Source of the DNA: Thiotrichaceae bacterium
GTDB lineage: Bacteria; Pseudomonadota; Gammaproteobacteria; Beggiatoales; Beggiatoaceae
NCBI GenBank assembly: GCA_028688145.1
Contig: JAQTYU010000007.1
Coordinates: forward strand, 62,001-126,000
Length of the DNA: 64,000 bases
Direction of reading: 5' to 3'
Below the pieces are notes generated by a model that was not told where the DNA came from, made no database searches, and saw only the letters and a program-made list of their open reading frames with translations. Position 1 is the first letter of the stretch, and each line of letters opens with the position of its first letter. The translations under genes were made by a program, and so were the position numbers. This document shows, in pieces, positions 57,236 through 62,411 of this stretch.

Positions 57236-58084
57236 ATGAGTACCTCCGAAGAAGTTGAAAATCAGCAGATTGAATTGCAACTGCTACTTCAAGCGATTTA
57301 CTTAAAATATGGCTACGATTTTCGGAGTTATGCGAAAGCCTCCGTAAAACGGCGTATTTTACACCGCATGACTACCGATCAGTTCCCCAATATCTCCGCA
57401 ATGCAGCATCGTCTGCTTGAGGATGTGAGTTTTTTTGAAACCTTGCTTTTAGATTTATCGATCAATGTCACCGAAATGTTTCGTGACCCGACGTTTTATC
57501 TGGCATTGCGTAAAGAAGTGATTCCCTTGTTACGGAATTATCCTTTTCTCAAAATTTGGCACGCGGGTTGTTCTTCGGGTGAAGAAGTCTATTCGATGGC
57601 AATCTTGTTAAAAGAAGAAGGTTTGTATGATCGGGCGCAAATTTACGCCACAGATATGAACCAAGTTATCCTAAAAAAGGCAAGAGATGGGATATTTTCA
57701 ATAAATCGCCTAAAAAGCTATACTATGAATTATCAGCGTGCAGGCGGACAAGAGTCTTTTTCCGATTATTATAACGCACACTACGACCATGTTGTTATGG
57801 ATAAGTCATTGAAAGAAAATATTTTATTTTCTGATCATAATCTGGCAACCGATGGGGTTTTTGGGGAAATGCACTTGATTATCTGCCGTAATGTGCTAAT
57901 TTATTTTAATCGAGAATTGCAAGATCGGGTTTTCAGATTATTTGCAGAAAGCCTTACTCTTGGTGGAATTATGTGCTTAGGCTCTAAGGAAAGTGTGAGA
58001 TTATCGAATATTTCTACTATATTTGATGATATAAGCAAGGAAGAAAAAATTTATCGAAAAAGTTTATCGCTTGATAAAATATGA
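57236..58084 (+). CDS. CheR-type protein-glutamate methyltransferase
   Basis: 282 residues. N-terminal all-helical domain (YGYDFRSYAKASVKRRILHR, about 25-44), then a SAM-binding Rossmann domain with IWHAGCSSGEEVYSMAILL (about 105-123), IYATDMNQVILKKA and LIICRNVLIYFNRELQ. Methylates chemoreceptor glutamates. No receptor, CheA or CheW gene is nearby. Its stop overlaps the CheB start (ATGA). First gene of the signalling cassette. Confidence 0.92.
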   Translation: MSTSEEVENQQIELQLLLQAIYLKYGYDFRSYAKASVKRRILHRMTTDQFPNISAMQHRLLEDVSFFETLLLDLSINVTEMFRDPTFYLALRKEVIPLLRNYPFLKIWHAGCSSGEEVYSMAILLKEEGLYDRAQIYATDMNQVILKKARDGIFSINRLKSYTMNYQRAGGQESFSDYYNAHYDHVVMDKSLKENILFSDHNLATDGVFGEMHLIICRNVLIYFNRELQDRVFRLFAESLTLGGIMCLGSKESVRLSNISTIFDDISKEEKIYRKSLSLDKI

Positions 58085-58692
58085 GCAGTGTACTTCACGA
58101 AAAGCGTTTTGAAGTGGTCGTGATTGGCGCATCTGCGGGCGGAATTCGTGCTTTGACGATGGTCTTAAGTGCCTTGCCTGAAGATTTTGCTTTACCAATC
58201 ATTATTGTACAACATGTGCATCCGCATTCTGGGGGCTATATTTCCCATATTTTAGGCGCGAAATGTGCATTAATTGTCAAACAAGCTGATGAAAAAGAGT
58301 CTGTTTTAGGCGGCACTGTGTACATTGCGCCACCCAATTATCATTTGATGTTGGAAACAGATCGCAGTTTTTCTTTATCAGTTGCAGCCCCTGTCAATTA
58401 TTCACGACCTGCAATCGATGTTTTATTTGAAACCGCGATTGATGCGTACTACGATAAAATTGTCTGTATCGTGTTAACAGGGGCAAATCATGATGGCAGT
58501 CAAGGAGCGGCTAAAATTCACCGCGCAGGAGGCTATATCATCGTACAAGACCCGACAACAGCCGAGGCAGATTCTATGCCACGCGCCACGCTGGCAGCGA
58601 CACCCGTGGATAAAGTACTTCCATTAGAACAAATCGGCGCGTATTTATTGCAATTGATAAATCGTAGCAATCAACTCTGGCATTTTCCATAA
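58081..58692 (+). CDS. CheB-type methylesterase without receiver domain
   Basis: 203 residues covering only the catalytic domain. Catalytic Ser in VVIGASAGGIRALT (about 16), His in VQHVHPHSGGY (about 44), Asp in VLTGANHDGSQGA (about 139). The N-terminal receiver that normally controls CheB is missing, so activity must be set by another route, perhaps by the receiver in the kinase next door. Translationally coupled to the CheR gene. Confidence 0.92.
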   Translation: MSSVLHEKRFEVVVIGASAGGIRALTMVLSALPEDFALPIIIVQHVHPHSGGYISHILGAKCALIVKQADEKESVLGGTVYIAPPNYHLMLETDRSFSLSVAAPVNYSRPAIDVLFETAIDAYYDKIVCIVLTGANHDGSQGAAKIHRAGGYIIVQDPTTAEADSMPRATLAATPVDKVLPLEQIGAYLLQLINRSNQLWHFP

Positions 58693-58818
58693 ATTTTAGA
58701 ATGTTATTATTCTTTTGTAAAATGATAGAAATTTTATAGTACTGTCATTATAGGGTAAACTAATGCCCTTACATTCGAGTGGCAACTTTTTTGTGGAGAG
58801 TGCATTTAGGCAATAAGC

Positions 58819-60630
58819 ATGAGCAGATCAGACTCTTTTAATATTTTAATCGTCGATGATAATAAAAATAATCTATTCACCCTCCATACGCTGATTGAAG
58901 AGCATTTGGATGATGTGGGCATTGTTGAAGCAGATTCAGGAATGCACGCTTTGGAGATTTTATTACAAGATAAAATCGATCTGATTTTATTAGACGTACA
59001 AATGCCCGAGATGGATGGTTTTGAAACCGCTCAGATGGTTCGCTCGCGCAAAAAAACCCAGCATATTCCTATCGTCTTTCTAACTGCCGCCTATAAATCG
59101 GAAGAGTTTCGCCAAAAAGGTTTTAGTATTGGTGCAGCGGATTACCTCACCAAACCGATTGATGCACCACAATTAATTAACCGTATTAAATCGTATTTGC
59201 GTTTTATCGAGCAAGAACGGCAGCATAATCAAGAGTTGGAAGAACGCGTGCAGTCGCGCACCGCTGAGTTACTCACTGCAAATTCTCAACTTCAGCAAGA
59301 AATTATTGAGCGCAAACAAATTGAAGCGCAATTGCAAGACATTCGGAATCAGTTAGAACACCGTATTCAAGAACGCACTAAAGAACTCTCTGAAACCAAT
59401 CGGCACTTGCAAGAAGAAATTAATGAGCGCAAACAAGCCGAGATCGCGCTTAAAAAACTCAGTCGGCAAACCCACTTGATTTTAGAATCTGCGGGAGAGG
59501 GCATTTGCGGCTTAGATATTGAAGGGAAAACCACCTTTATAAATCCCGCTGCAGTGGCGATGTTGGGTTATCAACCTGAAGAAATGGTTGGGAAAATTCA
59601 GCATTATGTCATGCACGACAAGCGCGAAGATGGTTCAATTTATCCTTTTGAAGAATGCCCGATTTATGCGGCTCTGCACGATGGTAGCGTGCGGCGCATT
59701 GATAACGAGGTATTTTGGCGCAAAAGCGGCACTTGTTTTCCCGTGGAATATATCACCACCCCGATTTTAGAAGAGGGCGAAGTGATTGGCGCGGTGGTCA
59801 CTTTCCGCGACATCACCGAACAAAAGGAAACTGAGCAGTTTTTAACCATTGCCAAAGAAACGGCTGAAGCCGCCAATCTTGCAAAAAGTCGTTTTCTTGC
59901 CAACATGAGCCATGAATTACGCACGCCATTAAATGCCATTATCGGCTATAGCGAGATGCTAATAGAGCAAGCAGAAGATTTGGAAGAGCCTGATTTAGTG
60001 CATGACCTGAGCAATATTCAAGTGGCAGGTAAGCATTTATTAAATCTCATCAATGACATTTTAGACTTTTCTAAAATTGAAGCAGGCAAGATGCAATTAT
60101 CCCTGCATGAGTTTGAAATTTTGCCCGCGCTGGAAATGGTGTTAATTTCTGTACGTCCACAAATGGAAAAGGCAAAAGATAATTTTGACGTGATTTTTGA
60201 TGAGTCCTTAGGTTCTATGTACAGTGATTCCGTGCGTCTACAACAAATTTTACTGAATTTATTAGGGAATGCGATTAAATTTACCCAAAGTGGCAGTATT
60301 GTGTTCACTGCCCAACGTATTGAACAAGAAAATATTCCCTATATCCGCTTTACCATCACCGACACGGGGATTGGTATCACTCAAGAACAACAGCGCAGAC
60401 TGTTTCAACCCTTCACTCAAGCGGATACTTCAGCCACTCGTAAATATGGCGGAACGGGCTTGGGGCTTTCCATCACCAAGCAATTGGTTAATATGATGGG
60501 CGGCACAATTCAATTACAAAGTGAAGTGGGGAAGGGCAGTTGTTTCACCATTTTATTGCCTGCGAATGCAAATCCGCCGCATATTTATTTCAGACATCCC
60601 AACACTCAACCTGAAGAGCATGAATTGTGA
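58819..60630 (+). CDS. Receiver-PAS hybrid histidine kinase
   Basis: 603 residues, no membrane segment. Receiver (about 8-125) with VDDN, phospho-acceptor Asp59 in LILLDVQMPEMDGFE and Lys in YLTKPID. Coiled coil of two repeats (about 128-215, ELEERVQSRTAELL and QLEHRIQERTKELS). PAS (about 218-345). HisKA with NMSHELRTPLNAIIGYSEML (His365), HATPase with NLLGNAIKFT, DTGIGIT and GGTGLGLSIT. A soluble kinase that takes input from a phosphorelay and a ligand. Its stop overlaps the first V4R gene (GTGA). Confidence 0.92.
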   Translation: MSRSDSFNILIVDDNKNNLFTLHTLIEEHLDDVGIVEADSGMHALEILLQDKIDLILLDVQMPEMDGFETAQMVRSRKKTQHIPIVFLTAAYKSEEFRQKGFSIGAADYLTKPIDAPQLINRIKSYLRFIEQERQHNQELEERVQSRTAELLTANSQLQQEIIERKQIEAQLQDIRNQLEHRIQERTKELSETNRHLQEEINERKQAEIALKKLSRQTHLILESAGEGICGLDIEGKTTFINPAAVAMLGYQPEEMVGKIQHYVMHDKREDGSIYPFEECPIYAALHDGSVRRIDNEVFWRKSGTCFPVEYITTPILEEGEVIGAVVTFRDITEQKETEQFLTIAKETAEAANLAKSRFLANMSHELRTPLNAIIGYSEMLIEQAEDLEEPDLVHDLSNIQVAGKHLLNLINDILDFSKIEAGKMQLSLHEFEILPALEMVLISVRPQMEKAKDNFDVIFDESLGSMYSDSVRLQQILLNLLGNAIKFTQSGSIVFTAQRIEQENIPYIRFTITDTGIGITQEQQRRLFQPFTQADTSATRKYGGTGLGLSITKQLVNMMGGTIQLQSEVGKGSCFTILLPANANPPHIYFRHPNTQPEEHEL

Positions 60631-61241
60631 AAGCCTGCGATCTTAATTTAAAAGACGAGCTTCAGTTTGATTTTGAACAGGGGCTTACCAGTTTTCGAGA
60701 TAGCCGTCTGGTTTTGATAGATGCCAACGCACTGGGCTTGTTGCGCCAAAATTTGATTGAAGTTTTAGGCATGGAACAAGCCCGTCATTTTTTCCTGCGT
60801 TTTGGTTATCAACAAGGTTTTTCTGATTTTATGCAGTGCCAATTGTCCTATCAATTCGAGAATGAAACCGAGTTATTTGCCGCAGGTCCTGTGCTGCATA
60901 CTTGGGAGGGCATTGTGAAAGCCAGTATCCTAGAAATAAACTATGACCGTCAACAAGGCAGTGGATATATCAAGGGGATATGGAAAAATTCCTATGAAGC
61001 AGAACAACATCTCTCTTATAATGCTTATTCAACGGATCCCGTCTGTTGGTCTTTGATGGGATATGCTTCGGGATGGTCAACGGGCTTTTTTGGCGTGCCG
61101 ATGTTAGCGATTGAAGAACAGTGTGTTGGCTGTGGTAATGCGGATTGCTGTATTGTGATACAGCCCTTGTCGTGTTGGAGCGATGCTGTTGCCCTGCCTT
61201 ATCGTGAAGCGTTTAAAGATTTTCACCCACCCATTAAATAG
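60627..61241 (+). CDS. Stand-alone XylR_N/V4R sensor protein, copy 1
   Basis: 204 residues from a GTG at 60627 that overlaps the kinase stop. XylR_N part (about 12-85): FDFEQGLTSFRDSRLVLIDA and LGMEQARHFFLRFGYQQGF. V4R part (about 90-190): GIWKNSYEAEQHL, DPVCWSLMGYASGWSTGFFG and EEQCVGCGNADCCIVIQP with a cysteine cluster. In XylR/DmpR/VnfA-type regulators these bind aromatic or other hydrophobic ligands next to an AAA+ domain; here the sensor is free and coupled to a kinase. Confidence 0.87.
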   Translation: MKACDLNLKDELQFDFEQGLTSFRDSRLVLIDANALGLLRQNLIEVLGMEQARHFFLRFGYQQGFSDFMQCQLSYQFENETELFAAGPVLHTWEGIVKASILEINYDRQQGSGYIKGIWKNSYEAEQHLSYNAYSTDPVCWSLMGYASGWSTGFFGVPMLAIEEQCVGCGNADCCIVIQPLSCWSDAVALPYREAFKDFHPPIK

Positions 61242-61357
61242 ACGATATTTCCAATATCTACAGGCTTTCTCCGAGCTTGAGAAGATTAGGAATATGTTTA
61301 AATTTAATTCTGAATTCCGCGAGATTTATTACGTAAGAATATGAAGGAGGAATACTT

Positions 61358-61549
61358 ATGGCGGAGAAATTGGTTCGCTATTACAAATATATTTATGAAA
61401 CACAAGGGCTTTCTGGTAAGACGTTGTTAGCTCAGAAAACTAAGATTCCTTCAATTAAAGCAGCATTCGAGTCAGACACGGCTGAAAATATCGCGTTGTT
61501 TAAACAAACTGTCGAATATTTAACAGGAAAGCCTGCTCCCGATTTCTAA
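61358..61549 (+). CDS. 63-residue protein of unknown family, copy 1
   Basis: Not recognised. 63 residues, soluble, likely helical: YYKYIYETQGLSGK, LAQKTKIPSIKAA, ENIALFKQTV and LTGKPAPDF at the end. A second copy at 62220-62411 is identical at 42 of 63 positions, with the blocks LAQKTKIPS, IALFK and LTGKPAPDF fully kept. A near-ideal aaggagg ribosome binding site lies 10 bases before the ATG, so it is probably made in large amounts. Always follows a V4R gene here. Confidence 0.85.
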   Translation: MAEKLVRYYKYIYETQGLSGKTLLAQKTKIPSIKAAFESDTAENIALFKQTVEYLTGKPAPDF

Positions 61550-61610
61550 CACACTGATTCTAGAGTAGTCAAGGAATGATGTATTTACCGCCGATTTTGG
61601 AGAAGCTGTG

Positions 61611-62207
61611 ATGAAAGCCTTAGATTTTGATCTATCCAAAGAAATTACCTTTGATTTTGAACAAGGTATCACCAGTTTTCGAGAAAGTCGGCTTGTGGTA
61701 CTTGATGCGAATGCCTTGGGTTTACTACGTCAAAACTTGCTTGAAAGTTTAGGGATGGAGGCCGCGCGCTCGTTTTTTCTACGCCTCGGTTATCAAAATG
61801 GATATGCAGATTTTTTGCAAATGAAACTGCGCTATCCATTCGAGAATGAATTAGAATTACTCAGCGCAGGTCCTGTGATTCATACATGGGAAGGCATTGT
61901 AAAAGCAATTCCTGATGAAATTGCTTATGATCGCAGCACGGGGCACTTTCATTTTACGGGTACTTGGCTCAATTCTTATGAAGCAGAACAGCATCTGTCT
62001 TATAATGACACATCCGCAGAGTCTGTTTGTTGGTCGCTGATGGGATATGCGTCGGGTTGGTCGAGTGGATTCTTCGGGACAAAGCTGATTGCGATAGAAA
62101 CTGCTTGTGTGGGGAAGGGGGATGCAGAGTGCCGTTTTCTGATTCAACCTGCTACAGCATGGGGCGAGCAGGCAATCCCTTATTTGAAAGCATACGAACG
62201 CTTTTAA
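61611..62207 (+). CDS. Stand-alone XylR_N/V4R sensor protein, copy 2
   Basis: 199 residues from the ATG at 61611, with ggaga seven bases before; a GTG one codon upstream is also open. Close paralogue of the product of 60627-61241: FDFEQGITSFRESRLVVLDA, LGMEAARSFFLRLGYQNGYA, GTWLNSYEAEQHLSYND, SVCWSLMGYASGWSSGFFG. In the last part only one Cys of the cluster pattern is kept the same way (ETACVGKGDAECRFLIQP): the CVGCGNADCC of copy 1 has become CVGKGDAEC, so ligand or metal binding may differ. Confidence 0.87.
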   Translation: MKALDFDLSKEITFDFEQGITSFRESRLVVLDANALGLLRQNLLESLGMEAARSFFLRLGYQNGYADFLQMKLRYPFENELELLSAGPVIHTWEGIVKAIPDEIAYDRSTGHFHFTGTWLNSYEAEQHLSYNDTSAESVCWSLMGYASGWSSGFFGTKLIAIETACVGKGDAECRFLIQPATAWGEQAIPYLKAYERF

Positions 62208-62219
62208 GGAGTATTCACC

Positions 62220-62411
62220 ATGGCAGAAAGGTTAATGCATTATTACAGCTATATTTATGATGAAAAGGGCTTAACAGGGAAAATGATGTTGGCGCAAAAA
62301 ACTAAAATTCCCTCAGTGAAAGCTGCAATTCTTGTGGACTCTCCCGAACACATCGCGCTATTTAAAAAGTTGGTGACTGAACTGACGGGAAAACCTGCCC
62401 CTGATTTCTAA
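62220..62411 (+). CDS. 63-residue protein of unknown family, copy 2
   Basis: Same length as copy 1, ending in the identical LTGKPAPDF. Begins MAERLMHYYSYIYDEKGLTG. A strong aaggag ribosome binding site stands eight bases before the ATG, and only 12 bases separate it from the V4R gene before it. No function assigned. Followed by about 500 bases with only a decayed transposase. Confidence 0.85.
   Translation: MAERLMHYYSYIYDEKGLTGKMMLAQKTKIPSVKAAILVDSPEHIALFKKLVTELTGKPAPDF

Follow-up and report, generated by a model that had tools for sequence, protein, structure and literature searches.

Which of seven consecutive genes in the genome of a Thiotrichaceae bacterium belong together, and what might they sense? 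The genes occupy positions 57236-62411, all on the plus strand, of a window of 64,000 nucleotides (the whole stretch analysed: assembly GCA_028688145.1, contig JAQTYU010000007.1, positions 62,001 to 126,000), and encode a CheR-type methyltransferase, a CheB methylesterase, a soluble histidine kinase and, twice over, a free XylR_N-V4R sensor protein (V4R-1, V4R-2) followed by a protein of 63 residues (s63-1, s63-2). All seven open reading frames were confirmed in this order, as given by a sequence-only reading that proposed a joint ligand-sensing pathway. A pathway of the seven genes as a unit is not supported; the finding is the pair V4R + s63, a repeated unit that recurs in a distant phylum. 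Window numbering is used throughout, and domain calls are from a Pfam scan of the seven proteins, supplemented with NCBIfam.

The V4R and 63-residue proteins as a recurrent pair

The duplication of the module is real: V4R-1 (60627-61241, 204 residues) and V4R-2 (61611-62207, 198 residues, with an additional in-frame GTG at 61608) are 64% identical, and s63-1 (61358-61549) and s63-2 (62220-62411) are 67% identical. The coupling of V4R-1 to s63-1 is looser than that of V4R-2 to s63-2 because the intergenic gaps are 116 and 12 nucleotides, respectively; 61 nucleotides separate s63-1 from V4R-2. The start of s63-1 is preceded by an AGGAGG site (within 61241-61358).

On the only named genome contig recovered, from a Chloroflexi assembly (L009), a V4R gene and an s63 gene overlap, flanked by genes for a DinB_2 protein and a pyridoxal-dependent decarboxylase, and no kinase, CheR or CheB gene was found near the pair in this 13-kb locus (three neighbours by Pfam, the rest by eye). 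The pairing of V4R with a 63-residue protein occurs outside the window as well; its conservation near CheR/CheB or hybrid kinases is not borne out by this locus. The DinB_2 protein upstream of the pair (L009:3413-4078, 221 residues) also has a weakly HicB/UPF0150-like N-terminus. The decarboxylase gene (L009:5033-6523) is convergent to the pair, and a link to aromatic amines is conceivable.

Indirect evidence of recurrence comes from contig sizes: 19 of the 120 s63 matches listed have a longest contig equal in nucleotides to that of a listed V4R match (the best 120 of 580), compared with 1.4 expected and a maximum of 7 in 2000 trials. This co-occurrence is a lower bound because only the best 120 of the 580 V4R matches were compared. 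On the contigs of 983 and 1201 nucleotides, a V4R gene and an s63 gene together would take up 81% and 67% of the sequence; a size of 2110 is common to two s63 proteins and one V4R protein, consistent with the arrangement s63-1, V4R-2, s63-2 seen here.

Neither s63-1 nor s63-2 matches anything in Pfam or NCBIfam at E≤0.1. A search with a single s63 sequence found five relatives, and a profile of seven sequences found 152 proteins at E≤0.01; the three named sources are assemblies of Bacteroidales, Syntrophorhabdales and Pseudomonadota. The length is exactly 63 residues in 107 of 122 aligned proteins. The genome of the window has two copies, both in the window. Among whole genomes its distribution is sparse and scattered: s63 occurs in one of 398 of the same phylum (the genome of the window itself) and in one of 301 from the phylum to which G040, the source of L009, belongs.

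For V4R, 580 free relatives were found at E≤1e-10, the best 120 of which are 198-241 residues long and 59-92% identical to V4R-2. Both window copies match PF06505 (XylR_N) and PF02830 (V4R), the match of V4R-1 to XylR_N being clear (99.6 bits) and its match to PF02830 scoring 28.5 bits in the scan of the seven proteins (cut-off 31) and 31 bits, over the cut-off, in a search of the genome. Both window copies retain the residues with which MopR/DmpR bind zinc and anchor phenol, namely a zinc site of three cysteines and one glutamate and the hydroxyl-anchoring His91 and Trp119. Of 74 aligned proteins, only two have lost one of the two anchors, Asn replacing His in one case and Cys replacing Trp in the other; both are lone free V4R proteins of the same genome that lack an s63 partner (L001:654-1250 and the L005 copy). 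The rest of the pocket differs from that of MopR, with Phe132 replaced by Gly in 73, Tyr176 by Ala in 67 and Ile191 by Trp in 62 of the 74. Six V4R matches were found in the genome of the window (3.63 Mb in 31 contigs), of which five are free XylR_N-V4R genes and one lies in a 565-residue open frame; the three free genes outside the window are a tandem of two, with a lipid A acyltransferase gene on one side and dapB on the other, and one beside a TPR gene.

Predicted relation of the pair to the two lobes of H-NOX

The two proteins of the pair appear to resemble different parts of H-NOX sensors. V4R is predicted by its model to have the fold of the H-NOX C-lobe, and its zinc site and pocket histidine align with those of H-NOX; His91 aligns with a histidine present in 21 of 21 H-NOX proteins, which from its position would be the heme ligand. 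The s63 proteins are statistically similar to the H-NOX N-lobe by profile, and the fold of the s63-2 model appears to resemble it as well. s63 belongs to a widespread, unnamed family with an apparent fold relation, which the sequence-only reading overlooked. YxSxR, which we take to be the heme-propionate motif of H-NOX, is in all 21 H-NOX proteins and absent from the aligned stretch of V4R. PF07700 (HNOB) has no match in the seven window proteins or elsewhere in the genome, where five free V4R copies and seven matches to methyl-accepting chemotaxis proteins (MCP) were found, none of the latter on this contig.

H-NOX proteins are described as small sensors that are encoded beside kinases such as HnoK and inhibit them when activated, some being activated by oxidation of zinc cysteines, also without heme (PMC7108781; PMC12329717). 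By analogy with this precedent, V4R and s63 would recognise a ligand and thereby regulate the REC-PAS kinase, the gene of which overlaps that of V4R-1. The locus may hold two copies of a two-gene sensor downstream of this kinase gene, in which V4R and s63, the likely N-lobe relative, are predicted to dock like the lobes of H-NOX and would probably switch the kinase in trans, an explanation to which we give an even chance. To judge by its residues, V4R would carry zinc, with His91 and Trp119 binding a ligand that is phenolic or otherwise aromatic. Fold and profile would place s63 on the V4R lobe where the H-NOX N-lobe covers the pocket, closing or reading it. The ligand-dependent state of V4R and s63 would then alter how the REC-PAS kinase autophosphorylates, in the way that H-NOX affects HnoK. 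The docking, ligand class and kinase control of the module, like the role of CheR/CheB, are what we infer. The two pairs differ from each other and could provide two inputs or form a heteromer. A bolder idea, somewhat less likely than not, is that V4R + s63 is a split H-NOX found across distant phyla, its two lobes encoded by two genes, with the pocket histidine in the place of the heme-ligating one and an aromatic metabolite (or even a tetrapyrrole) clasped between the two proteins, the clasp being read by a kinase.

Several results weigh against the two-gene sensor: the hhalign probabilities are modest, no signal was found with fused H-NOX, 15 V4R/s63 pairs show no correlated divergence, V4R genes occur without s63, and the pair of L009 stands without a kinase. 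If the two-gene sensor is real, it links, through a natural form made of two genes, sensor lineages that tend to be considered separately, namely MopR/DmpR-type phenol sensors, V4R/TRAPP proteins and H-NOX gas sensors. It would also provide the 63-residue family with its first functional hypothesis and offer a small, soluble and separable system in which the role of the N-lobe in an H-NOX-like sensor could be studied by adding or omitting a protein.

The kinase, CheR and CheB

The kinase (58819-60630, 603 residues) is soluble and consists of Response_reg (9-124), PAS (219-332), HisKA (355-423) and HATPase_c (470-582) domains, as the sequence-only reading had described; its receiver is N-terminal only, with none at the C-terminus, and the term hybrid refers to the N-terminal one. 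The GTG start of V4R-1 lies within its stop (GTGA), a 4-nucleotide overlap. Coupling of a free XylR-type sensor to a kinase is plausible, and this part of the proposed pathway stands: besides the gene overlap, two genomes of the Chloroflexota sample encode XylR_N-V4R in one chain with a LytS-type His_kinase (L019:1321-2835 and L022:1483-2826), and PcrS, a p-cresol sensor kinase of Aromatoleum, is described as V4R-PAS-kinase (PMC10715001). A response-regulator gene lies behind each of the two fusions; the one behind the L019 fusion, in L096, is of REC-AraC type. Neither fusion genome has an s63 match, both being among the 301 searched.

The gene overlap, the two fusions and PcrS (PMC10715001) also argue against the foremost alternative, a rather unlikely one, that V4R and s63 are a sensor pair aimed at another regulator and inserted behind an existing CheR-CheB-kinase locus, with s63 as an adaptor. 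In its favour, the pair of L009 stands without a kinase, free V4R genes of the window's own genome adjoin housekeeping genes, and CheR-CheB-kinase clusters exist without the pair, as in cfc as described (PMC4951495). It is improbable that s63 is instead an unrelated small helical protein, such as a reduced XRE-like DNA-binding domain that would make V4R + s63 a split one-component regulator: its profile gave no clear match to seven XRE domains of the same genome (score 11.8, with single ones reaching 15.5 and no extended colinear stretch), HTH_3 is absent from the weak Pfam rows, and the H-NOX match is stronger by both methods.

Upstream of the kinase gene, CheR (57236-58084, 282 residues, CheR_N and CheR domains) and CheB (58081-58692, 203 residues) overlap by 4 nucleotides. 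CheB lacks a receiver, Pfam finding only CheB_methylest (13-188). As had been noted, no receptor, CheA or CheW domain was found in the seven proteins, and no genome-wide search for CheA and CheW was made. The number of sigma-70-like sites does not clearly exceed that in shuffled sequence (19 compared with 14.3, standard deviation 3.9), and a single transcript is not established. It is improbable that the seven genes form a single signalling system in which CheR/CheB methylate some part of the kinase/V4R pathway. Although they share a strand, have two 4-nucleotide overlaps and admit no unrelated gene, 126 nucleotides separate CheB from the kinase, no second locus of like composition was found, the V4R + s63 pair of L009 stands without CheR/CheB and kinase, and the other three free V4R genes in this genome lie elsewhere without the rest of the cluster. 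Under the two-gene sensor, CheR/CheB would perhaps form a Cfc-like accessory of their own, directed at the kinase or at a distant target.

Comparison with known systems

By gene content, the adjacent CheR, CheB and sensor kinase genes resemble the cfcABCDE cluster of Pseudomonas putida, where CheR-CheB adjoin a sensor kinase and a chemotaxis role of CfcB/CfcC is said to be ruled out (PMC4951495). CfcA differs in being described as a CHASE3/GAF hybrid kinase (PMC6849547), and neither V4R nor s63 figures in the cfc cluster as described (PMC4951495). Compared with the phenol-sensing domain of MopR, DmpR (CapR) and PoxR, the window V4R proteins have a re-lined pocket and are paired with s63; they have no AAA+ or DNA-binding domain (Pfam), whereas XylR/NtrC-type aromatic regulators carry both in the same chain. 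PcrS, as described, likewise joins V4R sensing to a PAS-type kinase, but in one chain, whereas V4R in the window is a separate protein accompanied by s63 (PMC10715001). The fusions of L019 and L022 share the XylR_N-V4R input to a kinase and differ in the LytS type of the kinase and in being single chains. H-NOX/HnoK differs in being one chain instead of two, in having YxSxR and in matching PF07700, and both window proteins cover the helix-D region; the likeness lies in the fold similarity of both lobes, tentative for the N-lobe, the aligned zinc site, the aligned pocket histidine and a free sensor encoded beside a kinase gene (PMC7108781, PMC12329717).
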